Shown here one piece after another: positions 22,552 through 40,287 of a stretch of DNA of 40,892 bases. Below the pieces are notes generated by a model that was not told the DNA's origin, made no database searches, and saw only the letters and a program-made list of their open reading frames with translations. The translations under genes and the position numbers were made by a program. The DNA is taken from contig JANXSU010000133.1 of NCBI GenBank assembly GCA_025356545.1, forward strand, positions 1 to 40,892, written 5' to 3'. This DNA comes from Comamonadaceae bacterium. Lineage in GTDB: Bacteria; Pseudomonadota; Gammaproteobacteria; Burkholderiales; Burkholderiaceae_C. How positions within the stretch are numbered: position 1 is the first letter of the stretch; each line of letters begins with the position of its first letter.

Positions 22552-22558
22552 TTGTAAC

Positions 22559-23440: not shown

Positions 23441-23455
23441 GCGTGTTTCCTGTAT

Positions 23456-24370: not shown

Positions 24371-25422
24371 GTGTACTGTTTTTGCACCCACGCGCGGTAG
24401 GCACCGCTTTGTACGTTCGCCACCCACTTCGGGTTATCAAGGTACCACCGCACTGTTTTACGAATACCTGTTTCGAAGGTTTCTGCCGGTTTCCAGCCTA
24501 ACTCTTGCTCCAGCTTGCGCGCGTCAATGGCGTATCGGCGATCATGCCCAGGGCGGTCAGTGACATAGGTGATTTGCCTGCTGTAGGCTTGGCCATCGTC
24601 GCGCGGGCGAAGCTCATCGAGCAAGGTACAGACGGTGTGTACGATGTCGATATTGGGTTTTTCATTCCAACCACCCACGTTGTAGACCTCGCCCACACGA
24701 CCAGCCTCCAACACTCGACGGATGGCGCTGCAATGGTCTTTGACATAGAGCCAATCGCGCACCTGCATGCCATCTCCGTACACTGGCAAAGACTTGCCTG
24801 CGAGCGCATTCACGATGATGAGCGGTATGAGTTTTTCGGGGAAGTGATATGGCCCGTAGTTGTTACTGCAATTGGTGGTGAGTACCGGCAGGCCGTAGGT
24901 GTGATGCCATGCTCGCACCAGGTGGTCGCTGGCTGCCTTGCTCGCACTGTAGGGGCTATTGGGCTCATAGCTGTGGGCTTCAGTAAAGGCCGGCTCATCT
25001 TTAGTCAAAGAACCATAAACCTCGTCAGTGGAGACGTGCAGAAAACGAAAATTCTCTTTGGCGGATCCTTGCAAACCACCCCAGTAGGCACGCACGGCTT
25101 CGAGTAGGCGAAAAGTACCAACAACATTGGTCTGAATGAAATCTTCGGGCCCATGGATGGATCGGTCCACATGCGATTCAGCAGCGAAGTTGAGCACCGC
25201 GCGCGGCTGGTGGCGCGTCAGCAGTTCGGCCACCAACGTTGCATCACCCAGGTCGCCCTGAACAAAGGTATGACGGTCATCACCATCCAGGGTTGCCAAG
25301 TTTTCCAGATTTCCTGCGTAAGTCAGCTTGTCTAAATTAAGCACTGACTCACCAGCTGCGGCTAACCAGTCCAATACGAAATTGGCACCAATAAACCCGG
25401 CCCCGCCTGTCACGAAAATCAT
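24367..25422 (-). CDS. rfbB: dTDP-glucose 4,6-dehydratase
   Basis: Extended SDR of 351 residues converting dTDP-glucose to the 4-keto-6-deoxy form. NAD motif [20 protein letters not shown] at the start, [27 protein letters not shown] with catalytic Thr-Asp-Glu, and [20 protein letters not shown] with the Tyr-Lys pair. [15 protein letters not shown] and [12 protein letters not shown] are further family blocks. It heads rfbBDAC but lies only 25 bp after the tolC-like gene, with no terminator between, so the rhamnose genes may be transcribed together with the secretion genes. Confidence 0.97.
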
Positions 25423-25447
25423 ATACGCCTTTCCGTCTTAGCGTTGC

Positions 25448-26818
25448 TTATTCCGCTTGAAACGCCTGATTAATTTCAGCCACCGCCTGAGAGTCTGCTG
25501 CTCCCACTAAAGCCAGCAAGTTCAGTTTTGACACCAAATACATGTATCGCGCCTGTGCCAAATCACGTGAAACGACCATGCGCTGTTGCTGTGCATTCAA
25601 CACGTCAATCATAGTGCGATTCCCAGCCTGAAAAGATTTTTGATTCGAGACGATGAGCTGCTCCGCAGAGCGCAAAGCCTGTTCCAAAGCCCTGATTTTC
25701 GGAATATTCTCCGTGACGCCCCGAAACTGCTTGTGAACCTGCACGCCCAAATCCCGTCGGCCCGCCTCCAAAGCTTGCTCAGCGCGATCCACGTTCGCCA
25801 GAGCCTGGCGCACACCCGCATCCACGCCACCACCGGCAAAGATAGGAATGCTCAGTTGCAAACCGAGGCTCGTATTGGTGTACTTGGAACTAACATTGGT
25901 CACATTCTCACTCTCGCTACGCGACCATTGCGCCACCGCATCCAAAGTGGGGAGGTGCCCCGACTGGGCTTTGTCAACCTCCAGACGCGCCACATCCAGT
26001 TGCGCTTTGAAAGACATTAGCTTGGGACTGTTCAATTCTGCGCGCTCGGTCCAGTCCGTCAGACTCTCAGGCTTGGGTCCCACCAGGGTCAACTTGGCCA
26101 CATTCAGACTTTGCAAATCCTGCGCAGGCTCATTCACCAAAATCTGCACCTGGCGCAACGTGAAGTCCACGTTCTGTCGGGCTTCGATTTCTTGGGCCAC
26201 GACCAAATCCAGTCGGGCTTGGGCCTCATCCACATCGGTCCGTGTTCCGCCGCCTGCAGCATAAGTCTTGCGGGCTGCATCCACCTGGGCGGTGTATGCC
26301 GTACGTTGCGTCATCACCAAGGCCAGCTGCTCGCGTGAGAGTACCGCATCAAAATACGCGCCACTGACGCGAACTGCGAGATTTTGCTCATCCTGCGCCA
26401 ACGCTGCTTCTGCATCCTTGACCTGCTCCACGGCCTGCCGATACTGCGCCGTCAAGTAGGTACGAAACAAGGGCTGGCGCACCTGAAGCGTCTGGTTGCT
26501 ACTGGCGTAGGAGGAGTCAGTGATTTGTTCCACCCCTAAAAAGTTAGGGAGACTACTTCTCAACTGGTTGTTGTTTTGCGAGAGGTTGGCTGACACATTG
26601 GGCAACATTTGGGCAAACGCCTGAGGTAGTCGCTCACGCCCCGCCTGTGTCGCAGCGCGCGAGGCCAAGAGAGTGGGGTCTTGTTTTTTAGCGGCCTCAT
26701 AGGCCTGCAACAAGTCCATAGACAATGACGCCATTGAGCCCGACAACAAGGCCGCGCCCAACACCACATGAACCAAGCGCAGACCTTGAGGTCTTACGGA
26801 TACAGCATGGGTTGACAT
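25448..26818 (-). CDS. TolC-family outer membrane channel of the type I system
   Basis: Predicted outer membrane protein of about 456 residues forming the exit duct. An N-terminal signal peptide (about residues 1-31, hydrophobic core LVHVVLGAALLSGSMASL) is followed by LLQAYEAAKKQDPTLLASRA, the opening of the OEP repeat. Two alpha-hairpin repeats follow, the second beginning near SLGLQLSIPIFAGGGVDAGV, with GNRTMIDVLNAQQQR near the end, all typical of TolC/PrtF type I exporters. The ATG at 26818 has GGAG eight bases upstream; a GTG at 26827 is too close to it. It is the last secretion gene, five bases after the hlyD-like gene. Confidence 0.94.
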   Translation of the reverse strand: MSTHAVSVRPQGLRLVHVVLGAALLSGSMASLSMDLLQAYEAAKKQDPTLLASRAATQAGRERLPQAFAQMLPNVSANLSQNNNQLRSSLPNFLGVEQITDSSYASSNQTLQVRQPLFRTYLTAQYRQAVEQVKDAEAALAQDEQNLAVRVSGAYFDAVLSREQLALVMTQRTAYTAQVDAARKTYAAGGGTRTDVDEAQARLDLVVAQEIEARQNVDFTLRQVQILVNEPAQDLQSLNVAKLTLVGPKPESLTDWTERAELNSPKLMSFKAQLDVARLEVDKAQSGHLPTLDAVAQWSRSESENVTNVSSKYTNTSLGLQLSIPIFAGGGVDAGVRQALANVDRAEQALEAGRRDLGVQVHKQFRGVTENIPKIRALEQALRSAEQLIVSNQKSFQAGNRTMIDVLNAQQQRMVVSRDLAQARYMYLVSKLNLLALVGAADSQAVAEINQAFQAE

Positions 26819-26823
26819 GGGGT

Positions 26824-28200
26824 TCACTCCTCTTTCATCGAAGCGGCCAAGCGCTTGGTCAGTGGACTCAACAGGTAAGTCAACATGGAGCGCTCACCAG
26901 TGCGAAAAATAACTTCGGCAGGCATGCCTGGTTGAAGCTGGCGCTTGCCTAATTTTTTATACCCATCGGCGGTCACCCCGATACGTGCCAGGTAGTACCC
27001 CGCTCCCGTATGTTGATCCACCAGCAAATCGGCCGAGATCGACACCACATTGCCCTCCACCACCAACTGAGGAGTATGCGCAAAAGAAGAGAAGCGGACA
27101 TCCACCGGCAAGCCCTGATGCACGCGGTCAATCAGGTGTGGGGCTACGCGGGCCTCAATCAGCAAGGCTTGACCTTCAGGCACGACGTCCATCAATTTTT
27201 GTCCTGGGCCAATCACACCCCCCACCGTCTGAAACGCCAGACCGACCACCTGACCATCGGCCGGGGACTTGATTTCTATGCGCATCAGATCATCTCTTGT
27301 GGCATTGAATTTCTCCAGGTCACCACGCACCTCCCGACCAACATCAGCCAGTTGAGACTCCACCTCTTTGCGGTACTCTTGTTGGCGTGAGATAGCCCGT
27401 TGACGCACTTCCGAAATTGATCGTTTGGCCCGAATCGTATTGCCCTGTAGCTCGGCAATGCCAGAGCCCACCTCGGCCACCATGCGTTGCAACTCCAGTT
27501 GCCGATTACGCGGGGCATAACCCTCTTTCACCAGCTCACTCGTATTTTTAAGTTCTTCAGCAATCATTCCCTGTTGATCCTTGCGATTGATAAGCATTGA
27601 CTCATAGGCCTGAATCAAGCCCTCCTGCCCCTGAATGCTTTCATCCATTGCCTGCAAATCGGCCCGCAATGCGGTGCGCCGTGACACGAACAACTGCTCT
27701 TGCGTCAGCATCACCTGTCGGATCTGGAGGTCTTGACTGGCTTCTTGCACCTCTGAGCCGAACGCGATTTTGGCATCGCCACGCTGCTCGGCCATCAAGC
27801 GTGACTGCATGGCGCTCAAGCCCAAATAACGCTGACGCGCCGCCTCGAAGTTGGCACGCGCCACAGCAGCGTCCAAACGCACAAGCAGCTGCCCCTCTTT
27901 GACACGGTCTCCCTCCTTGACCAACACCTCTTTCACAATGCCACCGGTCAGGTGTTGTACGGCCTTGCTTTTGGTGTCAATCGTCACAGCCCCCGCGCCA
28001 GGCACGCCCTCATCCAAGGGGGCCAAGCCCGCCCAGAGTAAAAAACCGCCAAAACCAAGCCCCAAAGCCCACAAACCAATGCGTGCGGTACGGCCCATGT
28101 CTTGGGCCTGGTCTTGGTTTGCACGCCCCGAATCATTCGACCCCGCTTGCTTGGAAGACGACTGGGCACCGGGAAGTTTGAACATATCTAATTTGGACAT
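26824..28200 (-). CDS. HlyD-family type I secretion adaptor (PrtE-like)
   Basis: Inner-membrane-anchored periplasmic adaptor of 458 residues linking the ABC transporter to the TolC-type channel. A cytoplasmic N-terminus of ~40 residues precedes one membrane helix (about 40-61, IGLWALGLGFGGFLLWAGLA). VQHLTGGIVKEVLVKEGDRV is the lipoyl/barrel half-motif, residues about 130-300 are rich in heptads with long coiled coil, and SPADGQVVGLAFQTVGGVIG closes the barrel. The C-terminal PGMPAEVIFRTGERSMLTYL is the HlyD/PrtE signature. It starts 33 bp after the second ABC gene. Confidence 0.95.
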   Translation of the reverse strand: MSKLDMFKLPGAQSSSKQAGSNDSGRANQDQAQDMGRTARIGLWALGLGFGGFLLWAGLAPLDEGVPGAGAVTIDTKSKAVQHLTGGIVKEVLVKEGDRVKEGQLLVRLDAAVARANFEAARQRYLGLSAMQSRLMAEQRGDAKIAFGSEVQEASQDLQIRQVMLTQEQLFVSRRTALRADLQAMDESIQGQEGLIQAYESMLINRKDQQGMIAEELKNTSELVKEGYAPRNRQLELQRMVAEVGSGIAELQGNTIRAKRSISEVRQRAISRQQEYRKEVESQLADVGREVRGDLEKFNATRDDLMRIEIKSPADGQVVGLAFQTVGGVIGPGQKLMDVVPEGQALLIEARVAPHLIDRVHQGLPVDVRFSSFAHTPQLVVEGNVVSISADLLVDQHTGAGYYLARIGVTADGYKKLGKRQLQPGMPAEVIFRTGERSMLTYLLSPLTKRLAASMKEE

Positions 28201-28233
28201 ATCGGACTCAGCTAAAAAATGGAATAAAAATCA

Positions 28234-29973
28234 TCACGCCGGCACTGCTGCCGCATCCGGCAAAGTTGCAGCGGGCGCAGGGGTGTTCTGTAGCTTTTGC
28301 AAAGTCGCGATGACCTCGTCTCGCGGCCCCTCGACTTGCACTTGACCATCACGCAAAATCAAAATTCGATCGGCCATAGCCACCGCGCTGGGGCGGTGCG
28401 TAATGAGCAACACGGTTTTGCCCTTGCTCTTGAGTGACTTCACCGCCGCGAACAAAGCCGACTCACCCGCCTCATCCAGATTGGCATTTGGTTCGTCAAG
28501 CACGATCAACGCGGGATCTCCATACACAGCACGGGCCAGACCAATACGCTGACGCTGCCCCCCCGACAACAAACTGCCCGCTTCCCCAATTGAGGTGTCA
28601 TAACCTTTAGGAAAACGCAAAATCATTTCATGCAAACCCGCACTTTGAGCCGCTTCAATCACCCGCTCAGGATCCACCTCACCAAAACGGGCAATGTTGT
28701 CAGCAATCGAGCCCTCAAACAGCTCAATATCCTGCGGTAAGTAACCCAAGTGAGGGCCCAGCTCCATGCGATTCCAACCCTGAATCGGCAAGCCGTCGAT
28801 CAATACCTCTCCCGACACGTCCGGCCAGATACCCACCAAAACCCGTGCCAAGGTGGACTTGCCCGAACCCGAGGGGCCGAGAATGACCAGCACCGAACCC
28901 GAGGGCACGGCAAGGTTCACGTTTTGGAGAATCGGTTTGTCCCGCCCCGGGGCGATCGCCACAACATCACGCAACGTCAACTCACCTTTGGGTGACACCC
29001 GCTTGAGCGCAGGATCGCGTGGTGGGTGATCGGCCAACAAGGTCTCCAGCCGCGCAAAAGCCGCACGCATACCGATGAACTGGCGCCAGCTCCCGACAAT
29101 CATGTCAATCGGTGCCAAGGCACGGGTCATCAAAACGTTAGCCGCGATCATGCCGCCGGCTGATAGCTGGCCATCAATCACCAACAAGGCACCAGCACCC
29201 AAAGCCAAGGACTGCTGGGTGTAGCGAATGAACTTGCTGATGGCCGTGATGCGGTGCGTCAAGTGCTGCGCCACACCACTTTGTGCCAGTGCAGCTTGAT
29301 GTTTTTCGGCCCAACGCAATTGCAAATTTCTGACCATCCCCATTGACTCCAAGACCTCTGAATTTCGAAGCTTTCCCTGAAGAAAAGCACCGGCCTCAGC
29401 ATTGGCCTTGGCCGCATCCTCAGAGGGTGCCAGTGTGTGGCGATGTCCAAACCACGCTAACGCGGCTTGAATCAGAGCAAACACCACGCCCATCACGCCG
29501 AGCCAAGGATGCAACATGAACAGCACTGCCATGTAAATGGGGGTCCACGGCGCATCAAAGAAAGCGAAGATGCCATTGCCCGTTAGAAATTGACGAATCT
29601 GAATCAAGTCCCCAAACGCACGGGACGGGTTAGTACCTGACTGACTCAGGTGCGCCTCAAAACTAGCGTTGAAGACTTGCGTACACAGTTGCTCATCCAG
29701 TCGTACGCCCGTACTCACCAGCAGGCGCGAGCGCATCCACTCCGCAAACGCCATAACACCAAACAATAATAGGGTCAGCAATGACACCGCCAGCAAAGTC
29801 AACTCACTCTGACTGGCCAACACGCGGTCATAAACCTGGAGCATGTAAATGGTGGGTGACAACATCAGCAAATTAGCCACCATGCTGAAAATGCCCACAG
29901 CCACAAACTCGCGCCGGAAAAGCCACAGGGTGCGAGTTAAATCGCTGCGTTTAAAAAAATCGATTGTTTTCAT
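28234..29973 (-). CDS. Type I secretion ABC transporter, second of a tandem pair (PrtD-like)
   Basis: Half-transporter of 579 residues with membrane domain plus ATPase. Hydrophobic segments occur at about 23-45, 58-76, 147-175 and 250-290. The ATPase has Walker A GPSGSGKST (366-374), signature LSGGQRQR (469-476), Walker B ALIVLDEPNANLDE (488-501) and the H-loop LLITHRPSAVA. All ATP-site residues are intact. It is about 20 bp after the first ABC gene; motif positions coincide exactly between the two, so they are diverged duplicates that may form a heterodimer. No C39 peptidase domain is present. A Pro/Ala-rich tail ends the protein. Confidence 0.95.
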   Translation of the reverse strand: MKTIDFFKRSDLTRTLWLFRREFVAVGIFSMVANLLMLSPTIYMLQVYDRVLASQSELTLLAVSLLTLLLFGVMAFAEWMRSRLLVSTGVRLDEQLCTQVFNASFEAHLSQSGTNPSRAFGDLIQIRQFLTGNGIFAFFDAPWTPIYMAVLFMLHPWLGVMGVVFALIQAALAWFGHRHTLAPSEDAAKANAEAGAFLQGKLRNSEVLESMGMVRNLQLRWAEKHQAALAQSGVAQHLTHRITAISKFIRYTQQSLALGAGALLVIDGQLSAGGMIAANVLMTRALAPIDMIVGSWRQFIGMRAAFARLETLLADHPPRDPALKRVSPKGELTLRDVVAIAPGRDKPILQNVNLAVPSGSVLVILGPSGSGKSTLARVLVGIWPDVSGEVLIDGLPIQGWNRMELGPHLGYLPQDIELFEGSIADNIARFGEVDPERVIEAAQSAGLHEMILRFPKGYDTSIGEAGSLLSGGQRQRIGLARAVYGDPALIVLDEPNANLDEAGESALFAAVKSLKSKGKTVLLITHRPSAVAMADRILILRDGQVQVEGPRDEVIATLQKLQNTPAPAATLPDAAAVPA

Positions 29974-29992
29974 ATCAAATCATCGTTAGACA

Positions 29993-31729
29993 TCAAGCTC
30001 GAGCAGGCGTCGCGGTTGGGTTTGCGACCTGCTGCGCCTTGGCAGCCGCCTCAGACAGAGCTTTAAGCACCTCATCCCGGGGACCGAACATCTGCGCCTG
30101 CCCATCGCGCAAAACCAGCATCTTGTCTGCCACGCTCAGCACGCTAGTGCGGTGCGTCATCACCACAAAGGTGGTACCCAAAGCCTTTAGCTGGGCAATC
30201 GCCCCAGCCAACGCTGCATCCCCCTCCTCATCCAGACTGGAATTAGGTTCGTCCAGCACCACAAACGCCGGTTGCCCATAAATAGCGCGCGCCAGTGCTA
30301 CACGCTGACGCTGCCCCCCTGACAACATGGCACCGTCTCGACCTACCGGGTTTTCGTAGCCTATTGGCAAGGCCATGATGAACTCGTGCAGGCCAACCGC
30401 ACGGGCAGCAGCCTTGACCTTGACCATATCCACCGCGCCAAAACGGGCTATGTTCTCTGCCACCGTGCCTTCAAACAACTCAACGCCCTGAGGCAAATAA
30501 CCCAGATGCGGACCCAGCTCCAACTTATCCCAGGTGTACACATCAGCCCCATCCAGTCGCACCTTGCCATTGAGTGCTGGCCACAAACCCACCAGCAGGC
30601 GCGCTAAGGTGGTCTTGCCGGATGCAGAGGGACCTACCACCGCCAGCACCTCTCCCGGATTGAGTGCAAAGGCAACCCCTTTGAGAATCGGCGTCTGAGC
30701 TCCAGGCGCAGCCGCCATCACATTCTCGACCATCAGACGCCCCAGTGGGGCGGGCAGCTCCATACCCTGCGGCTTGATAGGCACCATGGCCAGCAAATTT
30801 TCCAGACGACCATAGGCATCCCGCACATTCACCACACCCTGCCACTGCGACACAATCTGAACCAAGGGGGCCAACACTCGTCCACCCAAAATGGAGCCCA
30901 CAATCATGTAAGCAGATCCGCCATTCAATTCATTTCTGAGCAATAACCAAGCCCCCAAACCCAACAGCATTGAGCTCACAACGTTTTGCAAGAATTTGGA
31001 TACGGCTTGAAAAAATCCGGCCCGGTCAGACGCTTGCGCCTGCAACGCTAAAAATTCGCGCTGCTTGTCCATCCAGCGGCGATGAATATCACGCAACATG
31101 CCCATCGACTCAATCACCTGTGCATTTCGCAAAGTGCCGTCGGCATATTGCTGCGCGGCAATGGCGCTGCGATTAGCGGCGAGCAGCGGTGGCTGGGTGC
31201 TGCGCTCATTGAGCCAGCCCACAAAGGTTTGAACGATGGCCGCCACGACAGCAGACCAACCCAAGACCGGACTAATAGCAAAAATGAGCACCAGGAAAAC
31301 CAGGGATACCGGGGCCTCCATCAAAGCCAGCAAGACCGGCGCGTGTAAAAAATCACGCACGATCCGAAAGTCATTCATCGGCTGACTCGATCCACCAGGC
31401 ATTTTTTTCAAATTAGCCTCAAAAATAGCGCTGAAAATCCGCTTGCTCATTCGACGGTCAAGCGCCATGGCGGCGTCGTGCATAACCTCAGAACGCACCC
31501 ACTCCAACACCTCCATCAAAATATAAGCAGCCAACACCAGAAGCGTGAGCATGGCCAAAGTCATGTGGTTACGGCTATTGACCACCCGGTCATACACCTC
31601 CAACATATAACCCGACGGCGCCAACACCAAGAGACTAGAAAATAGACTAAACCAAGCGGCCTGCTTGAAATAAGGCTGCAACGAGCCAATCGCTTCGCGC
31701 AGTTCTGACGGGGGTTTACTGGGATTCAT
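29993..31729 (-). CDS. Type I secretion ABC transporter, first of a tandem pair (PrtD-like)
   Basis: Half-transporter of 578 residues. Membrane segments lie at about 25-43, 57-75, 131-172 and 248-290. The ATPase has Walker A GPSASGKTT (366-374), Q-loop region GYLPQGVELF, signature LSGGQRQR (469-476), Walker B AFVVLDEPNSSLDE (488-501) and H-loop VVMTHRTSV. It lacks a peptidase or CLD N-terminal domain, so it belongs to the PrtD/RsaD type rather than HlyB. It overlaps the 201-residue upstream gene by four bases. It may act as a homodimer or pair with the second transporter; both ATP sites look functional. Confidence 0.95.
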   Translation of the reverse strand: MNPSKPPSELREAIGSLQPYFKQAAWFSLFSSLLVLAPSGYMLEVYDRVVNSRNHMTLAMLTLLVLAAYILMEVLEWVRSEVMHDAAMALDRRMSKRIFSAIFEANLKKMPGGSSQPMNDFRIVRDFLHAPVLLALMEAPVSLVFLVLIFAISPVLGWSAVVAAIVQTFVGWLNERSTQPPLLAANRSAIAAQQYADGTLRNAQVIESMGMLRDIHRRWMDKQREFLALQAQASDRAGFFQAVSKFLQNVVSSMLLGLGAWLLLRNELNGGSAYMIVGSILGGRVLAPLVQIVSQWQGVVNVRDAYGRLENLLAMVPIKPQGMELPAPLGRLMVENVMAAAPGAQTPILKGVAFALNPGEVLAVVGPSASGKTTLARLLVGLWPALNGKVRLDGADVYTWDKLELGPHLGYLPQGVELFEGTVAENIARFGAVDMVKVKAAARAVGLHEFIMALPIGYENPVGRDGAMLSGGQRQRVALARAIYGQPAFVVLDEPNSSLDEEGDAALAGAIAQLKALGTTFVVMTHRTSVLSVADKMLVLRDGQAQMFGPRDEVLKALSEAAAKAQQVANPTATPARA

Positions 31730-32331
31730 ACGGCCTCCTCGACCAACACATATTCCGGGACTTCAGCGCTTGCAGACAACTCCAGCTCAGGCGCTGATTT
31801 ATCTTGTTCATCAGACAATAAAAATGACAATTCGAATACATCATCCACACGGCGCGCCAGCACAATTTCACGCAACTTCATGGTCTTGAAGTTCGCCTCA
31901 TCGGCGGGCTGCAAGGCCAGCGCGAAATGCAGACGGCCCTCCAGCGTATACATCGACAGCTGTCCATCTTTCACACTCAAGGTGTGCCGGTCAAAATACA
32001 CAGGGCAGGTATCGGCAAAACGCAACAAAGGCAGCGGCCGGTCACCCAAGCTGACCAAGTTATAAGGGCTCTGCGGATGCTGAAACACCACCCGACACGT
32101 GCGCGACACTGAGTAAATGGCATTGCACACCATCTGCGAGCCCATCGCAGGAAAACGCTCGCGCAAGCTGCGATAGTTCAAATGATGCAAGGTCACCCGG
32201 TTCCACACCCGGGTTTGCTGCACCATCGGCGCTAACGCATTGCAAACCTGCGCAAACGCCGACTGCAGGGCCAGCAAGCTGGCCAACTGCTCTGCATTCG
32301 TGTTCAGCGGAATCCGCAGATTTAAATTCAT
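31726..32331 (-). CDS. Uncharacterised protein, first gene of the secretion run
   Basis: Protein of 201 residues that I do not recognise. It has no signal peptide or membrane segment. The N-terminal half is helical in character (LASLLALQSAFAQVCNAL), the middle has alternating hydrophobic residues suggesting beta strands (LPLLRFADTCPVYFDRHTLS), and the C-terminus is very acidic (ELELSASAEVPEYVLVEEAV). The stop overlaps the first ABC transporter start by four bases (ATGA), so it is translationally coupled to the exporter. An accessory role, such as cargo chaperone or transporter partner, is inferred. The start codon lies in a 14-bp inverted repeat, and there is no Shine-Dalgarno sequence in the six bases before the ATG and -10 box. 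Confidence 0.75.
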   Translation of the reverse strand: MNLNLRIPLNTNAEQLASLLALQSAFAQVCNALAPMVQQTRVWNRVTLHHLNYRSLRERFPAMGSQMVCNAIYSVSRTCRVVFQHPQSPYNLVSLGDRPLPLLRFADTCPVYFDRHTLSVKDGQLSMYTLEGRLHFALALQPADEANFKTMKLREIVLARRVDDVFELSFLLSDEQDKSAPELELSASAEVPEYVLVEEAV

Positions 32332-32364
32332 ATAGGAATTATAGAGTATGTCCTATATGAATTT
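32324..32364. promoter_or_regulatory. Perfect 14-bp inverted repeat over start codon and -10 box
   Basis: AAATTCATATAGGA (32324-32337) is exactly the reverse complement of TCCTATATGAATTT (32351-32364); the spacer is 13 bases. The left arm contains the start codon (32329-32331) of the 201-residue gene. As DNA it is an ideal repressor-type operator; as RNA it is an AU-rich hairpin that would hide the start codon. Confidence 0.7.
32338..32343 (-). promoter_or_regulatory. Consensus -10 box, possible leaderless start
   Basis: On the minus strand this reads TATAAT, in the spacer of the inverted repeat. It ends six bases before the ATG at 32331, so a transcript starting at the usual distance would begin at or next to the AUG, giving a leaderless mRNA. 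No TTGACA-like -35 box is seen 16-18 bases upstream, so strength or activator dependence is uncertain. Confidence 0.45.
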
Positions 32365-32395
32365 TTAAAATGCAGCCAAAAGCCGTTTCAGTTGT

Positions 32396-32905
32396 TTAAT
32401 GAAACGTCAGTCTTTTCGCGTTTACCACCTTGGTACCGCCTTCAAACCACTCGGGCCACATGTCCAAAGTCCACGCCGCCTTTTGACAAAGATCCCGCAA
32501 AATAGAAAGCCATTGACGCATCGGCGTAACTTCCAAATTCAACGTAGCCGCTTGCCCTGATCCATCTCTAAATGTCAGAGTCATAAGATTGGCAGAGCAA
32601 CCAACGTCCACAGACTGCACCAGCCAATTAGGCCCGTCCACCACGGCTCTAACTGGCGCTTGCGGCGTCAATTCGGATTGCGCCGTCTGCTGGGCAAATT
32701 CATGCAACAGATGGGCCCAGGTGGCATCACTACCCCTCTGCCCATCAAGCCACTGGATCAAGCTAGGCAACAGTCGTCCCAATAAGCGCTGGCTTAACCA
32801 CAAAACCATAGTGGCGTCACCGTGCACCTCTGCGACAAGACGAATCCGATCCTCAACCTCCACATACTCCGTGGTGATGCGTTGAAGCAGTGCAGGGCCC
32901 GTCAT
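32396..32905 (-). CDS. Uncharacterised protein beside type I secretion genes
   Basis: Soluble protein of about 169 residues, not recognised. No signal peptide or transmembrane segment. It starts with a strand-rich part (EYVEVEDRIRLVAEVHGDAT), then a helical WLSQRLLGRLLPSLIQWLDG, and a second strand-rich part (WLVQSVDVGCSANLMTLTF). The end is Trp-rich (AAWTLDMWPEWFEGG). The ATG at 32905 overlaps the preceding stop by one base (TGATG); a GTG directly before it is the alternative start. The stop is 64 bp before the 201-residue gene. Its constant place between cargo and exporter suggests an export helper, by inference only. Confidence 0.72.
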   Translation of the reverse strand: MTGPALLQRITTEYVEVEDRIRLVAEVHGDATMVLWLSQRLLGRLLPSLIQWLDGQRGSDATWAHLLHEFAQQTAQSELTPQAPVRAVVDGPNWLVQSVDVGCSANLMTLTFRDGSGQAATLNLEVTPMRQWLSILRDLCQKAAWTLDMWPEWFEGGTKVVNAKRLTFH

Positions 32906-33129
32906 CACCCCAGCTTAATCGTGTCCCCACCCGTGATTGACGGGGTGTTCAGAAGCACATCACTCAAACCCTTGGCATAGGCCGCGCGCGCGGTTTGCAG
33001 TACGGCCGCTTTGGCACTGAGACGTTGTAGCTCGGTATCGACAAACTGAAGGCTGGCCAGTTGAGCCTTGGCCTGATCGGGCAGCGTGTCAAGTTCGTAG
33101 TCTTTGTTGTCAATTTTGATGATCGGCAT
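32905..33129 (-). CDS. Small DUF6447-like protein
   Basis: Protein of 74 residues. It begins with a strand-forming MPIIKIDNKDYELDTLPD, followed by a helix AKAQLASLQFVDTELQRLSA and a second Ala-rich helix, AVLQTARAAYAKGLSDVLL. This pattern matches what I recall of the DUF6447 family of short proteins; the name is from memory and should be checked. Function is unknown; the LQFVDTEL..L coiled-coil look suggests a protein-protein contact. It opens the accessory gene set and is translationally linked to the 170-residue gene by a TGATG overlap. Confidence 0.72.
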   Translation of the reverse strand: MPIIKIDNKDYELDTLPDQAKAQLASLQFVDTELQRLSAKAAVLQTARAAYAKGLSDVLLNTPSITGGDTIKLG

Positions 33130-33156
33130 GGAGGCTTTCTTAAAGTCAAAACACCA

Positions 33157-33171
33157 CCGCTTTACAAGCGG
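33157..33171 (-). terminator. Small hairpin after the protease gene
   Basis: CCGCTT pairs perfectly with AAGCGG around a three-base loop. On the minus strand it is followed shortly by TGGTGTTTTGAC, a broken T-run. It lies in the 57-bp gap between protease and the DUF6447-like gene and is probably a leaky terminator or attenuator lowering expression of the secretion genes relative to cargo. Confidence 0.5.
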
Positions 33172-33186
33172 CAGACCAAGGCTGAA

Positions 33187-34398
33187 TTATCCAGCAAAGA
33201 TGCCGCCGTCATCATTCAAAATCGTCCGCATGGCCGTGAGCGTCACCACGCCCACCCCAAAGCTGCCGCCCACCGGGTTGGTGACATCCAGGTAGAAGGT
33301 TTCATTCGGCTCGGGGGTGGTATCCCCCATGATTTCCACCGGAATGACGGCCTGATTTTCGTTTGGGTATAGCACCAGCTTCCCAGCAACGCTCAAATAG
33401 TCCTGCCCCGCTGTGGCCGTTCCATCGCGCGTGGTGTAGTCCACGCTCAACCACTGGTTAGGGTCACTCCGCACCCCCGTGAATTGCAACAGAAAATAAG
33501 CATAACTTGTGCCGCTATTGCCCTCGATCACTGTCTTTTGCACGGCTGCGGCTTGGGTAGGTGCATTCGGGTAGTGCGCCCGCAGACTTTGGTCAATCCA
33601 CTGCTGGTAGGCGCTCACCCGCTGCCAAGCAGCGATCTCACCAAAACTGCTGTTAACCGCCCCATCCACATCCGGATGAACACTACCCAACGCCAAGCTG
33701 GCGGTGTAACTGGCAATGCCCGCAATCTGGCCATTGATAAACGCCGGCCCACCGCTATCGCCAGGGGCCACCAAGCCCTCGTTTTCTCCCAAGCCCAGTC
33801 CAGACTGATTAATCAACCGCCCCAAGGCATCTTGGTTGCTGGCGCCGCTGTCAAAATCTGCCACCAGCTGCGTACCCGCTATGGGCGTCCAAGCCATCAC
33901 CGCGCCCAGCGTGTTCTTTAGCGTGCCCATGTCCGCATCAAACTGGTTATTGGCTTTAAGACGCAAGGGTGGGCCGACGTAATTGCTCAATTGGCCCGTC
34001 GCACCCGTGCCCGGCAAACCATAGCCCACCATCGTCATGGTCTGGCCCAATTCGTCGCTGCTGCGGTACAGGGTGTAGCGCTGCGCCGTCACGGTGGCGG
34101 GGATGCTCAACCACACCAAGGCCAGATCGTTATTGTCTTGCACCGGATCGTAGCTGGGGATGAGTGAAACACCCGCCGAAGACAAACTCGCGTTGCCCGC
34201 CGTTGTTTCAAACAACACCGTCGCACTGGCAGCGTTGCCCTTGAACAAATGAGCTGCTGTCAGAACGGCATGACCGTCATACAGCAAAACCCCGGTGCCA
34301 TAGTTGCTACCCACCACCACGCGCACCACACCATCAAAACCCTCGCCCGCAGCGGCTCGGTTGCGTGGATCGGTGTAAGCGGTGACGGTAGTGACCAT
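33187..34398 (-). CDS. Trypsin-like serine protease with Calx-beta domain, likely type I cargo
   Basis: Predicted secreted S1-family protease of 403 residues. The catalytic triad is complete: His50 in AVLTAAHLF, Asp91 in NDLALVWL and Ser215 in APGDSGGPAF. Residues about 290-395 form a Calx-beta domain (VDYTTRDGTATAGQDYLSVA, then PEPNETFYLDVTNP), a calcium-binding fold common in RTX-type exoproteins. There is no Sec or Tat signal peptide; the protein starts directly with the protease fold. The C-terminal ILNDDGGIFAG is a plausible uncleaved type I signal. It sits between the S-layer-like gene and the exporter. It may process the surface protein or be an independent exoprotease. Confidence 0.9.
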   Translation of the reverse strand: MVTTVTAYTDPRNRAAAGEGFDGVVRVVVGSNYGTGVLLYDGHAVLTAAHLFKGNAASATVLFETTAGNASLSSAGVSLIPSYDPVQDNNDLALVWLSIPATVTAQRYTLYRSSDELGQTMTMVGYGLPGTGATGQLSNYVGPPLRLKANNQFDADMGTLKNTLGAVMAWTPIAGTQLVADFDSGASNQDALGRLINQSGLGLGENEGLVAPGDSGGPAFINGQIAGIASYTASLALGSVHPDVDGAVNSSFGEIAAWQRVSAYQQWIDQSLRAHYPNAPTQAAAVQKTVIEGNSGTSYAYFLLQFTGVRSDPNQWLSVDYTTRDGTATAGQDYLSVAGKLVLYPNENQAVIPVEIMGDTTPEPNETFYLDVTNPVGGSFGVGVVTLTAMRTILNDDGGIFAG

Positions 34399-34410
34399 GA
34401 GCCGCCTATT

Positions 34411-34447
34411 GTAAAAGCCACCGGTGAAGGTCAGCGGTGGCTTTTAC
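34411..34447. terminator. Strong hairpin between surface-protein gene and protease gene
   Basis: A perfect 13-bp stem: GTAAAAGCCACCG (34411-34423) and CGGTGGCTTTTAC (34435-34447), loop of 11 bases. The GC-rich part is flanked by A-run and T-run inside the arms, so it works as an intrinsic terminator in either direction. It lies 42 bp after the surface-protein stop codon and 12 bp before the protease ATG. It should cut most transcripts after the abundant cargo gene. Confidence 0.85.
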
Positions 34448-34489
34448 TTTCCCCAACAAAGATCGGAGTAAATGGTCGTGATCAGTTGC

Positions 34490-37294
34490 TTACGCAAGCG
34501 TGATCACGCCCGAAGTAATGGTGGCGCTCGTCAGATCAATTAAGCCCACCAGTTGCACAACGGTGTCGCTTCCATTCTGGAAGGTCCCCGCAGCAGAAGT
34601 GTCTTCAACTATATAAGTGCTGCCGGCGAACTGGAACCACTTGAAGATCGTATTGACACTACCATTGCCAGCGGTGGCGGCACTCAGGCCGGTCGCCAAA
34701 GAGGCGGCAGGGCTTGCCACCGCCGCTGTTCCCATCGCTATTTGAGCGGTAATTGTGGCCCCATTTTTCACACCGAACAGGTTGATCTTGTCGCCTGACG
34801 ACATGCCCGTGATGATCGTCATGTTGGCGAAGGTGGTTTGAATGCCATTCAGAATCACGGTATCAGTCCCGCTACCGACGTTGACGTTGTTTACGCCAGT
34901 CGCCGCGCCGATGGTGATCGTGTCATTGCCCAAGCCTGTTTTCACCGTGCTGCCACCCGTTCCTAGGGTTAGGGTCACTGCTGCCGTGGCAGCAGACAAA
35001 TCCAAGGTGTCAGTTCCGGCTGCGCTGCCCTTCACGGTTGCAGGTGCTGCCAATGCACCCGAGGTCCAAGTCAAGCCACCAAAAATACCACTCGTCGTCA
35101 AGCCAGAAGCGTCTAACGAGGTCAAGGCCGTCTGCGTCATGCCGCCAATCAGGCTCACGCCCATATTACCGGCCACAGTGACGGTAGTGGCCGCAGTCGC
35201 CGTAAGGGGTGTCACGATCAGGGCCGTCTGCGCGACCGCATCGGCATCGGTCGTTGTAATTTTGAGGCTTTCAACATTGGCAATGGTGATGGTTGCTGTG
35301 CTCGTAAACCCATTGGCCGCAATGTACGCCAAATTCACGTTATCACCACCACCTGTATCCACTGCCAACCCTACAGAACTGTCAAACGTCGTCGCACCGC
35401 GCTGCGTCAAGGTAAAGTCAGCGGCCGCATTGGTCACTGTCAAAGCAGCTCCCGTTGCACCTGCGATAGACAAGTTGTTAACACCCGCGTTGGCCATGTT
35501 GATGGCTGTGGCTGCGCCCGTTGCAGCGGACAAACTCAATACTTCAAAACCGGTCACCGCTGTTGCAAAAGCGGCTGAACCTGTCGCCGTCACCGCCTGC
35601 ACTGCCGTCATGCTGATGGTGTCGGTATTGGCCCCGCCGTTGATAGAGCCACCCACGCCCACTGGGCCACCGTAGGTCACAAAGTCATTGCCGGCCCCTG
35701 TCGCAATAGCGACGGTCGCACCGGTTGATGTGCTGATCGTGTCAATGCCAGAACCACCGGTGTAGCTGACACCTACAGCCAGCACAGGCACAAGGCTCAC
35801 ACTCGCCGTTGAGCCCGAAGCATTGACTGACGTGAGTGATGCCACGGAAGATAAGCTGTTGATCACCACATTGGCGCTTCCCGAAATAGTCAATGACGTT
35901 GCAGACCCAATGCTGGCGTCAGCCAGTGTGAGGGCTGCGCCAGTGGCATCGACACTCAAACTCGTGGCAGAAGCGGCACTCACACTGACGCCGGATGACA
36001 CAGCTCCTGAGTTTCTGACACTCACAGTCGTTGCAGTGGCATCCGTGATCGCGCCGCCGGTCACGCCATTGAGGTTCACGGTCAACGCACGCGCACCCGC
36101 AGCAGCTGTCACCGTGGCGTTTTGCGCCTCGCTGGTGAGTGAGAGCGATGTCAAACCATTGCTGACAAGACTGGCCGCCCCGGTGTTTCCATTCAAAGAA
36201 ACACTCGTCAAGCCGCTGCCTGTGACCGCAGACGCACCAGAGCGGTCTTGCAGGTTGACGGTGGTTCCGCCCACAACCGCCACGGACGTGACAGCATTGG
36301 CCACCGCCGTTTGCCCCAAGTTAACAGCACCAGCGCCCGTAGTAATTGACACAGCGCCACCGCCACCGACTACATCAACGGTCGAAGCCCCTGTAGCCAC
36401 AATGCCAAGTGCCGTCGTGTTTGCAGACGTGACGCTGATGGCCCCAGAAACCGAGTCCGTCACGTTGAGTTGCGTTAAGCCAGTGTAACCACTGGCAGCG
36501 GTGTCGACCGTGAAGCCGACGCCTGTTGTGGTGATGTTGATGGTTTCAACATTGGTGACTGTTACGCCAGCAGGAACCCCGACGCCCGTCAAGGTTGCTG
36601 TTAGCGTGTCGATACCGGCTGCACCGTCAATCGTGTCTGAGGCGCTCCAGGTATCGGCTGTACTGGCATTAATGGTGTCGCTTCCCGTCGTACCTTGAAC
36701 ATTATCTATACCGGATGTGAGGGTAAAAGTAGCAGTCTTGACGGTAGATAAGCTGGCCACTGTGGCTACTACACCCGCAATTGCGGTTGCAGCGGTGGTC
36801 TGGCTGGTAATGACGGCCAGATATGCACGCCCAGCAGCGGCAGCTGAACTATTAAGTTGCGAATAAGCGACATTAGCAGCAGGGTCAGTTAACGCATCGC
36901 TAAACACAGCCATGGCGACCAACTTGGATTGCGCAGGCAATTGATACGACGGGGGCACATTCGTTGCACCCAAGTAGCTCACGAAAATTGTCCATGCGGC
37001 TGAAGCTGCTGAGATGGTGCCGTTCGTAATCAAGTTGCCCCAAGCGGTTTTTTCAAACTCGCTGGCCGCAAAACCAAACTGATTCAGAAATATCTTATTG
37101 ACTAACGTGGACGTGCTGTCTGCGGTAGAAAAAACACCTTCAGCAATGGCCGCACTGTAAAAAGCGGCTAGCAACGCGGCCGAAGGTGCGTCACCCATTT
37201 GAGTGGTGATCGTGCTCGTGGCAGAGCGCCACTGAATATCGGCCGGACGCCCCATATAGGCCAAAAAAAGCTGATCAGCAACTGGTTGTGACAT
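34490..37294 (-). CDS. Large S-layer/RTX-like surface protein, type I secreted
   Basis: Protein of about 934 residues, very rich in Thr, Ala, Ser, Val and Gly and nearly free of Cys. There is no Sec signal. The N-terminal ~180 residues are helical and begin QPVADQLFLAYMGRPADIQW, resembling DUF4214-like segments at the start of surface proteins. Residues ~190-800 are beta-strand repeats with RTX-like calcium motifs (GTTGSDTINAS, GAGNDFVTYGG, GLGNDTITIG near 787). The last ~100 residues (WFQFAGSTYIVEDTSAAGTF, LVGLIDLTSATITSGVITLA) look like a type I C-terminal secretion region of S-layer proteins. The ATG at 37294 has GGGAG seven bases upstream; earlier codons lack this. Function as an S-layer or matrix protein is inferred. 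Confidence 0.85.
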   Translation of the reverse strand: MSQPVADQLFLAYMGRPADIQWRSATSTITTQMGDAPSAALLAAFYSAAIAEGVFSTADSTSTLVNKIFLNQFGFAASEFEKTAWGNLITNGTISAASAAWTIFVSYLGATNVPPSYQLPAQSKLVAMAVFSDALTDPAANVAYSQLNSSAAAAGRAYLAVITSQTTAATAIAGVVATVASLSTVKTATFTLTSGIDNVQGTTGSDTINASTADTWSASDTIDGAAGIDTLTATLTGVGVPAGVTVTNVETINITTTGVGFTVDTAASGYTGLTQLNVTDSVSGAISVTSANTTALGIVATGASTVDVVGGGGAVSITTGAGAVNLGQTAVANAVTSVAVVGGTTVNLQDRSGASAVTGSGLTSVSLNGNTGAASLVSNGLTSLSLTSEAQNATVTAAAGARALTVNLNGVTGGAITDATATTVSVRNSGAVSSGVSVSAASATSLSVDATGAALTLADASIGSATSLTISGSANVVINSLSSVASLTSVNASGSTASVSLVPVLAVGVSYTGGSGIDTISTSTGATVAIATGAGNDFVTYGGPVGVGGSINGGANTDTISMTAVQAVTATGSAAFATAVTGFEVLSLSAATGAATAINMANAGVNNLSIAGATGAALTVTNAAADFTLTQRGATTFDSSVGLAVDTGGGDNVNLAYIAANGFTSTATITIANVESLKITTTDADAVAQTALIVTPLTATAATTVTVAGNMGVSLIGGMTQTALTSLDASGLTTSGIFGGLTWTSGALAAPATVKGSAAGTDTLDLSAATAAVTLTLGTGGSTVKTGLGNDTITIGAATGVNNVNVGSGTDTVILNGIQTTFANMTIITGMSSGDKINLFGVKNGATITAQIAMGTAAVASPAASLATGLSAATAGNGSVNTIFKWFQFAGSTYIVEDTSAAGTFQNGSDTVVQLVGLIDLTSATITSGVITLA

Positions 37295-37587
37295 GTAAAA
37301 ACTCCCAGCAATTAGCTGTAATTCGTCGCCATTTCGATTATGAGTCACACCACGATAGCGATAGCCATATTAACAGTGCTTACGTATTTTTTTCTTCACG
37401 AAACCGGGAAATGGCAGTCGCCAGACGCAACTACTCAAGCAAGGACCAAGCAAGTAGGCTTGGTCCTGCCTGGAACTAAAGAGCTTTAGCTGTTTTTAAT
37501 GGATTTGCAACGTAAAGTCGCCTCGAAAGCCAAGAAGCCCACAGATTCAGGGTTGACCGATCCGGGTAGCACGCATTAAGTCAAGCA
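37295..37587. other. Intergenic region upstream of the surface-protein gene
   Basis: 293 bp without a convincing gene. It holds a perfect 10-bp hairpin, AGGACCAAGC (37442-37451) with GCTTGGTCCT (37458-37467), the probable end of erpA transcription though without a T-run. A second small hairpin, CTAAAG/CTTTAG (37476-37489), is followed on the plus strand by CTGTTTTT. The leader of the surface-protein mRNA should lie in 37295-37430, an AT-richer part with a poly-T tract at 37388-37394; no convincing -35/-10 pair was identified. Confidence 0.6.
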
Positions 37588-37953
37588 TCACGCCGAAAAA
37601 GAAGAACCACAACCACAGGTGGTGGTGGCATTCGGGTTCTTGATGACGAACTGGGCTCCTTGCAAGTCTTCTTTGTAGTCGATCTCCGCGCCCACCAAGT
37701 ACTGGTAGCTCATAGCGTCAATCAGCAAAGAGACGCCATTTTTGGTCATGGTGGTGTCGTCTTCATTGGTCACTTCGTCAAAAGTGAAGCCATATTGAAA
37801 GCCGGAGCAACCACCGCCTTGAACGAAGACGCGCAATTTCAGCTCAGGGTTGCCTTCTTCGGCAATCAAATCGGCCACCTTGGCGGCTGCGCTGTCGGTG
37901 AACAGGATGGGGCTGGGCATTTCGGTCTGGATATTTTCTGCAACGGCGCTCAT
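37588..37953 (-). CDS. erpA: Iron-sulfur cluster insertion protein ErpA
   Basis: A-type Fe-S carrier of 121 residues that delivers [4Fe-4S]/[2Fe-2S] clusters to target proteins. The three cluster-binding cysteines are present: Cys49 in [12 protein letters not shown] and Cys113/Cys115 in [10 protein letters not shown] at the C-terminus. [20 protein letters not shown] and the [20 protein letters not shown] segment are family blocks. The ATG at 37953 is preferred to a TTG four codons upstream. It is 61 bp after the bactofilin gene and starts the stable core region adjoining the accessory surface locus. Confidence 0.96.
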
Positions 37954-38014
37954 AAGAGACTCCAAAAAACGTGATTAAGTTAATAGTACAACAAATTAGT
38001 CAACCATTCAGTGG

Positions 38015-38413
38015 CTAACGATTTGCCGCCAGCATCAGTGTGGGCTTTATCTCAGCTTCGGGCTCTGACAAAGGCCGCATCTGGCCCGAGATGATGGCAC
38101 CTTGGTGCATTTCAAGCGCGGTGTAGTGCACGTCACCCGTGATTCGCGTTTTGGGCTGCAACTCCAGCATGCCCTTGGCGTACACAGGACCTGTGACCGT
38201 GCCGTTGATGATGACGTGATCCACATGAATCTCCCCGGTCACCGACGCAGTTTCTGAAATCACCAAGATACCTGGTTGCTCCGGGTTAGATCGAATGTCG
38301 CCCACTACCACGCCATCAATCCGCAAACCACCGGTAAAGGTCAGGTTGCCGTCAATATGCGTGCCATCAGCAATCAGACTTCTGATCGGTGGTTGCTTTT
38401 TCTTGTTGAACAT
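38015..38413 (-). CDS. Bactofilin (polymer-forming cytoskeletal protein)
   Basis: Small beta-helical scaffold protein of 132 residues. The core shows repeated six-residue turns: SLIADGTHIDGNLTFTGGLR, IDGVVVGDIRSN, ASVTGEIHVDHVIINGTVTG, with disordered ends, as in bactofilins that polymerise without nucleotide. Bactofilins position cell-wall or surface-structure enzymes at the membrane. It lies between erpA and the membrane coiled-coil gene, an order often seen in Burkholderiales. No link with the S-layer-like locus is shown. Confidence 0.92.
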   Translation of the reverse strand: MFNKKKQPPIRSLIADGTHIDGNLTFTGGLRIDGVVVGDIRSNPEQPGILVISETASVTGEIHVDHVIINGTVTGPVYAKGMLELQPKTRITGDVHYTALEMHQGAIISGQMRPLSEPEAEIKPTLMLAANR

Positions 38414-38434
38414 ATCGAATCCTTTAGGGGGCAG

Positions 38435-39166
38435 TCATAACTTGATTGACGCTGACGCTTTGGTCACGGCGCCGTCCATCACCTTGGCGCTGACGCCCTT
38501 GAGCTGGGTCTGCGCCGGCAGATCAAACAGACCTTCGCTCCTGGCGTATTGCCGCAGCTTGAGGGCTTGAGCCCCTTCTACCAAGCTGGCCGTCCATGGT
38601 TTGCCGCCCTGTAAACCCGTAAACACCAACTCCAGTCGCCCATTGAACTCGGGCGCATCTTTGACGGGCTGGATCACCAACACCTGCCATTTTACTTGGC
38701 GACCATTGGCCAGAACTTCGGCATGTAAACCGCGTATGGCCATGCCAGAGCCACCCACTGCGGGGATCAGCTTTTCAAAAAAACCCAGATCCGCGCGCAA
38801 AGACTGGTTTTCACTCTCCAGCGTCTTGTTCACAGACGCCAGCCGCTCCTGTGCCGCTCGTTCTGTGGTCAGTTGCGTCAATGAGATATCCGACACCGAC
38901 ACGGCCTTGTTTCGTTCCTCTTGCAGGCTGGCCAGTCTCTGCTGTAGGGCGCTCAATTCCGACCGCAACTTCACCACTTGCTCAGCGCTATCGGCATCAA
39001 TGCCAGCGATGTCTTTGCCAAACTGAAACGCCCACAGACCAATGGCCGCACAAAAACCAAACACCAGCGCCATCACGGCCCAGCGAAAAGGCCAAGGCAG
39101 CGCACTGCGCACCGCCATGCGGGGGGCACTGATGGTCAGGCGGCGGCGAAGCAGTCGAAATCTCAT
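38435..39166 (-). CDS. Membrane-anchored coiled-coil protein (DUF6776-like)
   Basis: Protein of 243 residues. A basic N-terminus (MRFRLLRRRLTISAPRMAVR) precedes one membrane helix (about 28-50, WAVMALVFGFCAAIGLWAFQ). A coiled coil of about 70 residues (VVKLRSELSALQQRLASLQE onward) is followed by a C-terminal beta-rich domain (WQVLVIQPVKDAPEFNGRLE). This fits DUF6776 as I remember it; no enzyme motif is visible. It is 21 bp upstream of the bactofilin gene, so it may be its membrane partner; this is inference. Confidence 0.8.
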   Translation of the reverse strand: MRFRLLRRRLTISAPRMAVRSALPWPFRWAVMALVFGFCAAIGLWAFQFGKDIAGIDADSAEQVVKLRSELSALQQRLASLQEERNKAVSVSDISLTQLTTERAAQERLASVNKTLESENQSLRADLGFFEKLIPAVGGSGMAIRGLHAEVLANGRQVKWQVLVIQPVKDAPEFNGRLELVFTGLQGGKPWTASLVEGAQALKLRQYARSEGLFDLPAQTQLKGVSAKVMDGAVTKASASIKL

Positions 39167-39196
39167 GGGGTGTGAAGTCTAGCAGTCCACAAGTAA

Positions 39197-39230
39197 AACG
39201 ACCGTCAGAATTTGCACTCTGACGGTCGTT
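39197..39230. terminator. Strong terminator after rpsI
   Basis: A perfect 13-bp stem, AACGACCGTCAGA (39197-39209) with TCTGACGGTCGTT (39218-39230), eight-base loop. On the minus strand the stem ends in GTCGTTTTAC, giving a U-run; on the plus strand TTGTTTT follows. It separates the ribosomal operon from the coiled-coil/bactofilin genes. Confidence 0.9.
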
Positions 39231-39270
39231 GTTTTGCAAGGTTTTGCGACAAGCGCAACTTGCGGTGAGA

Positions 39271-39663
39271 TTAACGCTTGCTGAACTGCTTGCGACGGCG
39301 AGCACCGTGCAAACCGACCTTCTTACGCTCAACTTCACGTGCATCACGTGTCACGAAACCAGCTTTGCTCAACTCAGGCTTGAGCGTTGCATCGTAGTCA
39401 ATCAGGGCGCGGGTAATGCCGTGGCGCACTGCACCCGCCTGGCCGGACTCGCCACCACCGGCCACATTGACCATGATGTCAAAGGTTTCGGCGTGATTCG
39501 TCAGCATCAAGGGCTGCTTGCAGATCATGATCGAGGTTGCACGACCAAAGAAATTCTCAATAGCCTTGCCATTGACAACGATCTGGCCTGAGCCTTTTTT
39601 CAGAAACACACGAGCGACGCTGGATTTGCGACGGCCGGTGCCATTGTTCCATTCACCGATCAT
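39271..39663 (-). CDS. rpsI: 30S ribosomal protein S9
   Basis: 130 residues, standard length. It begins [20 protein letters not shown] and has [36 protein letters not shown] and the invariant C-terminus [17 protein letters not shown], whose last residues reach the P-site tRNA. Its ATG overlaps the rplM stop by four bases. Confidence 0.98.
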
Positions 39664-40130
39664 TTGGCGGTCTCCCTTTTAACTGCATCGGCAGAAATGC
39701 CAGCAATTTCCAACACTTTAGGCTGCTGGGCGGTATGGGGATGCTCAGCACCGCCGTACACCTTGAGCTTTTTGATCATCGCGTAGCCCAGCGGCCCTTT
39801 GGGCAGCATGCCCTTGACGGCTTTTTCCAAAGCGCGGCCAGGGAACTTGGCTTGCATGTCGCGGAAGTTGATGGCGGAGATGCCACCAGGATAGCCGGAG
39901 TGGCTGTAGTAGATTTTGTCGATCGGCTTGGCGCCGGTGACACGCAGACGTGCTGCGTTGATGATGACGATGAAGTCACCGGTATCGACGTGAGGCGTGT
40001 AAATGGCCTTGTGTTTGCCGCGTAAACGGAGAGCAACTTCGCTGGCTACTCGTCCGAGGACCTTATCGGTCGCGTCAATCACAAACCACTCGTGCACGAC
40101 CTCAGCGGGTTTTGCGCTGAAAGTTGACAT
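39660..40130 (-). CDS. rplM: 50S ribosomal protein L13, with C-terminal extension
   Basis: 156 residues against the usual 142. The conserved protein ([65 protein letters not shown]) is complete. Fourteen extra residues, [14 protein letters not shown], follow the position where most L13 proteins stop. The extension reaches into and overlaps the start of rpsI by four bases (ATGA), so it creates translational coupling. GGAGGGTTT-type purine-rich leader and a promoter with a TATAAT box precede it. Confidence 0.97.
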
Positions 40131-40276
40131 GAGATTTCTCTTTTTAAAGGAGGGTTTGGCGGGTTCTTTTCCACGGTCGGCGTTCCTCTACTGGGAATCT
40201 CTTAGGTGGGGAGTGTCATGACGCAAGGTCATAACGGTCTTCGCCGCGGAACCACAAATGCGCTGCGAAGCTTTGG

Positions 40277-40282: not shown

Positions 40283-40287
40283 CAAAA

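Follow-up and report, generated by a model that had tools for sequence, protein, structure and literature searches.

A conserved 11-bp site pair at the promoter of a type I secretion operon: a candidate autogenous operator for a RuvC-less, TnpB-derived putative regulator

Introduction

What purpose is served by a perfect inverted repeat that encloses both the -10 box and the start codon of the first gene of an export operon? The question is raised by a 40,892-nt stretch of Comamonadaceae bacterium DNA (contig JANXSU010000133.1 of assembly GCA_025356545.1), the whole of which is referred to here as the window. Two 14-bp arms, at 32324-32337 and 32351-32364, are 100% complementary and are separated by a 13-nt spacer. 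The spacer holds a minus-strand TATAAT, and one arm holds a minus-strand ATG at 32331-32329, six bases after TATAAT. A preliminary description of this DNA had reported arms matching at 14 of 14 positions, the -10 box in a 13-base spacer and the ATG within an arm, all of which are confirmed by the window sequence. It had also assigned this ATG to the first export gene. The open reading frame that starts there (31726-32331) encodes instead a putative regulator derived from TnpB, and the export genes come after it. The explanation that we favor, with a probability of roughly three in four, is that the repeat is an autogenous operator: the gene product, the WED-REC lobe of a TnpB that has no RuvC, would repress its own type I secretion operon via two 11-bp sites.

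Results

The arms form the only inverted repeat of at least 12 nt reported between 32000 and 32700, and the 14-bp repeat occurs once in the 3.26-Mb genome. As orthologues reveal, it consists of two copies of an 11-bp site, TTCATATAGGA, whose core TTCATATAKGA is present in exactly two copies in its own genome, both of them in this repeat. Copy A (32351-32361), which reads TTCATATAGGA on the minus strand, ends 7 bp upstream of the -10 box. Copy B (32327-32337, plus strand) reads TTCATATAGGA on the plus strand and TCCTATATGAA in gene orientation, spanning the presumed transcript start and the ATG. The -10 box TATAAT itself (32338-32343, minus strand) lies between the two copies. When the same genome was scanned with a 16-bp near-palindrome, 14 places were found at up to three mismatches as compared to four in the control, and one place with two mismatches was found besides the operator itself. 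The repeat drawn in the preliminary description is real and, by the orthologous promoters described next, beyond chance, but the conserved unit is the 11-bp core rather than the 14-bp arm.

The orthologous promoters came from a collection scan in which the best 80 of 154 loci were kept, mainly from Comamonadaceae with some from Thauera and Rhodocyclaceae. The promoter set (n = 78) comprises the window and those 77 of these loci in which 100 nt or more of upstream sequence was available. The best copy per promoter is exact in 74 and carries one mismatch in the other four, so all 78 promoters hold a copy within one mismatch, as compared to 1 of 3,760 control windows from the same loci. No extra exact copy was found outside the promoters in the 0.79 Mb around the 78 loci. 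Across the 77 loci the core hardly varies, whether in the 70 forward copies, the 67 at the ATG or the 20 flipped ones upstream; it reads TTCATATA, mostly G, then GA, and is preceded by an A-rich stretch. Of the 74 loci with an upstream copy, 54 leave 5-6 bp between the copy nearest the -10 box and the box itself, and a copy overlapping the ATG, with two mismatches at most, is found in 67 of 77.

The copies vary in number and orientation. With '>' denoting TTCATATAGGA in gene orientation with up to two mismatches, the arrangements among the 78 promoters are '><' (50), '<><' (8), '<<' (6), '<>' (6) and, more rarely, '<' (3), '>' (3), '>>' (1) and '>><' (1). In six promoters the upstream copy is flipped, so that direct repeats replace inverted ones, and other loci carry extra copies, up to three in all. 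Two loci (L056 and L107) have copies A and B widely spaced, 38 and 33 bp from centre to centre, with copy B still at the ATG. Two distant members of the family, L149 and L150 (about 50% identical), have no site at the regulator start. Their two direct 11-bp copies (L149:4211-4237, minus strand; L150:562-588, plus strand) stand before a TolC gene for type I secretion, which is the first gene of the operon there; in these two members the site follows the operon head and not the regulator start codon.

This variability bears on a second proposal of the preliminary description, a start-codon RNA hairpin, possibly a thermosensor, acting on read-through transcripts. The read-through RNA of the window is predicted to fold strongly (-20.8 kcal/mol, z -6.8), and a hairpin may act in that RNA; both arms are consensus in 43 of the 58 loci that have an inverted pair. 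As a conserved function, however, the hairpin does not stand: the inverted A/B pair is missing in 19 of 77 loci, direct repeats take its place in the six promoters noted above, the sites in L149 and L150 sit before another gene, and a transcript from the internal promoter lacks arm A. Compensatory arm changes in related genomes, which had been suggested as a check, were sought in the 58 loci, where 13 change in one arm only as compared to two with a matched change in both. Copies that are flipped, tripled or moved to a TolC gene point to an operator and not to a conserved RNA hairpin, which we consider very improbable.

Between the end of the best -10 hexamer and the ATG there are 6-12 nt in 76 of 77 loci; the hexamers have a mean score of 10.1 as compared to 6.0 at random places, and a Shine-Dalgarno-like motif was found at -16 to -5 in none of the 78 loci. 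Together these features suggest that the regulator mRNA is leaderless or nearly so, as had been proposed, with the support coming from sequence only. The copies are placed where a repressor would block RNA polymerase, which is consistent with repression.

The gene behind this promoter encodes a putative regulator of 201 amino acids (31726-32331, minus strand), predicted to be a stand-alone WED-REC module related to TnpB and Cas12f, with no RuvC. Searches of Pfam, NCBIfam, PHROGs and PDB sequences with this protein returned nothing significant, and the link to TnpB came from a fold search and a profile search of genomes. An AlphaFold2 model built from 69 sequences (predicted local distance difference test score 89.7, predicted template modeling score 0.86) has Cas12f and TnpB as its best PDB folds, with a Foldseek E value of 1.5e-6. 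SpCas12f1 residues 4-216 match the model with Z 14.6 (167 aligned residues, root mean square deviation 3.3) and ISDra2 TnpB residues 3-173 with Z 11.4, while in the Cas12f and dCas12f entries 9i8y, 8j3r and 9n9c model residues 1-178 align to about the first 216 residues. Excerpts of the ISDra2 TnpB structure paper place WED at residues 1-12 and 117-176, REC at 13-116 and RuvC from 185 onward (PMC10097598). Since the match covers residues 3-173 and RuvC begins at 185, the regulator would correspond to the recognition lobe alone. Consistent with this, it ends where RuvC begins when aligned to full-length relatives, and a family-library search found no match to the OrfB_IS605 or TNB domains in it. 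The first gene of the operon thus looks like a nuclease-less, TnpB-derived recognition lobe and not like an export component.

Five full-length relatives carry both Cas12f1-like_TNB and OrfB_IS605 domains, the OrfB_IS605 domain of one (L124) scoring below the cut-off. By BLASTP the regulator shares 43% identity over 128 amino acids (2e-30) with a full-length IS200/IS605 TnpB borne on an insertion sequence (IS) and 41% over 134 amino acids with a second full-length TnpB; five IS-type relatives are 21-35% identical to it over the alignment. The family profile matched 15 of 300 genomes at the level of the order and 3 of 398 at that of the phylum. Several of these matches are the N-terminal portion of a full-length TnpB, in some cases with a tnpA-like gene alongside. 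In a tree, the 42 sampled RuvC-less proteins fall on one side of a branch (100/97), compatible with a single origin; the bootstrap is not fully settled and there is one very long outlier. One candidate stand-alone member, L148, was rejected as a TnpB cut by a contig end.

The site and the gene travel together. The gene is matched in 42 of the 399 family genomes (five of them weak, E 2.6e-15 or weaker), and the inverted pair occurs in 23 of the 399, all among those 42. The pair is absent from the 357 sampled family genomes without a gene match, and a reversed-pattern control gave no occurrence in the 399. Every inverted pair adjoins the gene, the farthest lying about 0.23 kb before the matched part (in G011). 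Among 34 loci of a second set, some of which duplicate loci among the 154, 30 have a copy with no more than two mismatches between -130 and +15, and four (L019, L118, L119 and L120) have none in that interval. Longer stretches of 16 RuvC-less loci, several representing the same places, contain a copy within one mismatch in 13 cases. The operator, then, overlaps the promoter of the gene itself and is conserved together with it, as expected of an autogenous operator. In one genome (L142, G362:C13:36500-41000) a second, apparently decayed copy of the regulator has an intact site at its ATG and no transporter gene behind it.

A possible origin of the site is suggested by the IS relatives of the regulator. 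In ISDra2, excerpts of the literature describe the transposon-associated motif (TAM) as the target site left of the element, with IS200/IS605 elements inserting 3' of it (PMC8612924), and the TAM as read by the WED and REC domains of TnpB (PMC10097598, in part). Six complete IS copies in one genome, G417, have different flanks and all carry TTCATAGAA at the left boundary, five of them also sharing the preceding T. Two copies in a second genome, G544, become identical at TTCATAGAAATG, where a third reads N, and the single copy in a third, G698, has TTCATAGAACT 86 nt before a tnpA-like frame. The IS right ends in G417 and G544 read TTTAC. Locus L127 is one of seven IS copies in G417; its left ~0.2 kb is missing, and tnpB and the right end are kept. 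A plasmid search gave one match, an IS200/IS605 TnpB of Methylomarinovum that is annotated 'transposase' and lies beside tnpA; no TTCAT is present in the 400 nt before that tnpA, where an IS4 transposase gene is found. On the evidence of the left boundaries in G417, G544 and G698, all with TTCATAGAA, TTCAT would be the TAM of related TnpBs in these three genomes. The operator begins with TTCATA, and TTCAT is its first five bases; of the 1,024 possible 5-mers, 14 occur anywhere in the operator and two at a 5' end of it.

The pairing of site and gene also bears on whether an unlinked transcription factor of another kind occupies the sites, with the WED-REC protein otherwise employed, for example in an RNA-binding or structural secretion role. 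Operon-first genes need not be regulators, and DNA binding by this protein is a prediction. Such a factor would nevertheless have to be reconciled with a core found in its own genome only at this promoter, with the absence of the pair from the sampled family genomes without a gene match and of exact extra copies around the 78 loci, and with a site that begins with the probable TAM of related TnpBs. We regard it as improbable.

Somewhat less improbable, though still unlikely, is that a guide RNA encoded in trans directs the WED-REC protein, with TTCAT serving as TAM and ATAGGA as seed, in the manner of TldR, a TnpB-like nuclease-dead repressor. The relatives of the regulator are RNA-guided enzymes, and TldR repression uses a 6-nt seed according to excerpts of PMC13418256. 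The conserved length here is exactly a TAM plus six bases, the TldR seed length, and a guide was searched for on this account. ATAGGA is rare in the sequence covered around the 77 loci, up to 6 kb on either side, with 39 matches, no more than three per 100-nt bin and no pile-up near the gene, and TTTACATAGGA is absent from the same stretches. In its own genome, TTGTTTACATAGGA, which joins the IS end to ATAGGA, has three matches, each with two mismatches, as compared to two in the control. An Rfam search of 22000-40892 returned one match, far below threshold, and nothing credible. The IS right-end sequence TTGTTTAC occurs nine times in the 77 loci. In addition, loci from Comamonadaceae, Zoogloeaceae, Rhodocyclaceae and Sterolibacteriaceae share one and the same hexamer, a uniformity that is not needed for programmable guides, and the guide scaffold of ISDra2 TnpB is bound mainly by WED and RuvC (PMC10097598, in part), the latter being absent here. 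With this partner missing and no recurring ATAGGA-bearing candidate in the stretches covered, guide-free reading of the site is preferred, and the regulator is probably independent of a guide RNA, although a guide encoded elsewhere or matching imperfectly may exist.

Besides this agreement with the TldR seed length, several observations weigh against an autogenous operator derived from a TAM. As to the promoter, copy B is missing from 10 of 77 loci, the 11-bp site is asymmetric, and the -35 region is weak, with 2.8 matches as compared to 2.3 at random places. Three of the 16 RuvC-less loci (L143, L151 and L155) lack a copy with at most one mismatch in the stretch examined, L143 and L155 having one copy each with two mismatches, and in L149 and L150 the copies are found nowhere but 1.5-2.2 kb upstream. 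As to the TAM, two of the five TnpB-bearing relatives inspected, G446 and Methylomarinovum, are without an identifiable TTCAT left boundary. An empty IS site, sought in 61 genomes of the family of G417, yielded only the two flanks of G417 itself, so the TAM assignment rests on where the identity of the IS copies begins. Finally, TTCAT is the reverse complement of ATGAA, so that within copy B the need for a start codon would by itself preserve part of this motif, although this constraint cannot account for the operator copies other than B.

In the operon that the site would control, the regulator gene is followed on the minus strand by a type I secretion permease/ATPase of the PrtD family (29993-31729), which is the first export gene and overlaps the regulator stop by 4 nt, a second PrtD-family permease/ATPase (28234-29973), an HlyD-family membrane fusion protein (26824-28200) and a TolC-family outer-membrane protein (25448-26827; TIGR01844, 1.4e-85). 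Where the regulator gene is followed by 150 nt or more (76 loci), the ABC ATPase starts within -40 to +60 nt of the regulator stop in 75 and at +77 in the remaining one, and the 4-nt overlap recurs in 62. The second ATPase and HlyD come next wherever the locus is long enough, and TolC then follows in the window.

Genes upstream of the operon are variable among loci. In the window they include a 170-amino acid protein without family matches (32396-32908, minus strand), relatives of which, 38-44% identical, are encoded upstream of the operon in L065, L070, L098, L102 and L110. A 403-amino acid protein with trypsin-like and Calx-beta domains (33187-34398, minus strand) adjoins the export operon and may be another exported protein. 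Farther upstream, a repetitive 952-amino acid protein without family matches (34490-37348, minus strand) is by its look perhaps an exported, S-layer-like substrate; tblastn found relatives of it in 3 of 79 loci, many with short flanks.

Discussion

What, then, would the repeat do? Of the models in the preliminary description, that of a repressor operator is the one supported, by conserved copies that lie on either side of the -10 box and accompany the gene. Its basis is computational: the protein has the predicted fold and the sequence homology of TnpB and lacks RuvC, and the operator is conserved, co-occurs with the gene and matches the left boundary of the IS elements. We propose a leaderless promoter of the sigma70 type, with a TTCATATAGGA site on each side of its -10 box, that would drive regulator-ABC-ABC-HlyD-TolC. 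The 201-amino acid product would be the WED-REC lobe from the N-terminus of an IS200/IS605 TnpB after loss of the RuvC nuclease and TNB domains, still reading the ancestral TAM TTCAT plus six further fixed bases, ATAGGA. It would bind each copy in the way of a conventional sequence-specific DNA-binding protein, block RNA polymerase and, by negative feedback, keep the level of the export system in check unless some signal relieved the autogenous loop. A transposon nuclease cut down to its TAM-reading half would in this way have become an autorepressor in Comamonadaceae and relatives.

We think it somewhat less probable, but still the better bet, that this represents a new class of guide-free transcription factor, in which a WED-REC lobe serves as autorepressor and its operator is made up of the ancestral TAM and six more bases. 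Cas12 and the RNA-guided repressors known as TldR both arose from TnpB, and both keep the nuclease lobe and a guide, and the regulator family suggests a third fate in which the DNA-recognition lobe alone survives as a local regulator. If true, the recognition lobe of TnpB and Cas12 would be able to read DNA by itself, and the family would offer a natural minimal reader of a TAM or protospacer-adjacent motif (PAM) with a defined 11-bp site, making RNA-free DNA reading by WED-REC directly testable. It would also point to a likely regulator for a type I secretion operon that recurs in Comamonadaceae and related families. A literature search, in whose results the original TldR report did not appear, found no RuvC-less TnpB regulator, and novelty in print is not claimed; no paper in the literature searched holds TnpB, TTCAT and TAM together as whole words.

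The closest known system is TldR, described in excerpts of PMC13418256, which is likewise derived from TnpB, domesticated and linked to non-transposon genes, and repression beside a TAM is what is proposed here. The regulator shares the TnpB homology, but unlike TldR, which keeps an inactivated RuvC, it has neither RuvC nor TNB. TldR has an adjacent guide RNA, whereas none was found near the gene here, and TldR targets flagellin genes elsewhere, whereas the apparent target here is a fixed site in the gene's own promoter. The IS200/IS605 TnpB of ISDra2 shares the WED-REC fold, as predicted for the regulator, and has the TAM TTGAT (PMC10097598 and PMC8612924, in part) as compared to the probable TTCAT here; the regulator lacks the RuvC nuclease lobe and TNB domain of such TnpBs, and its gene belongs to a conserved export operon, not to a transposon. 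Cas12f and dCas12f provide the best structural matches, and of their architecture the regulator holds the recognition lobe only.
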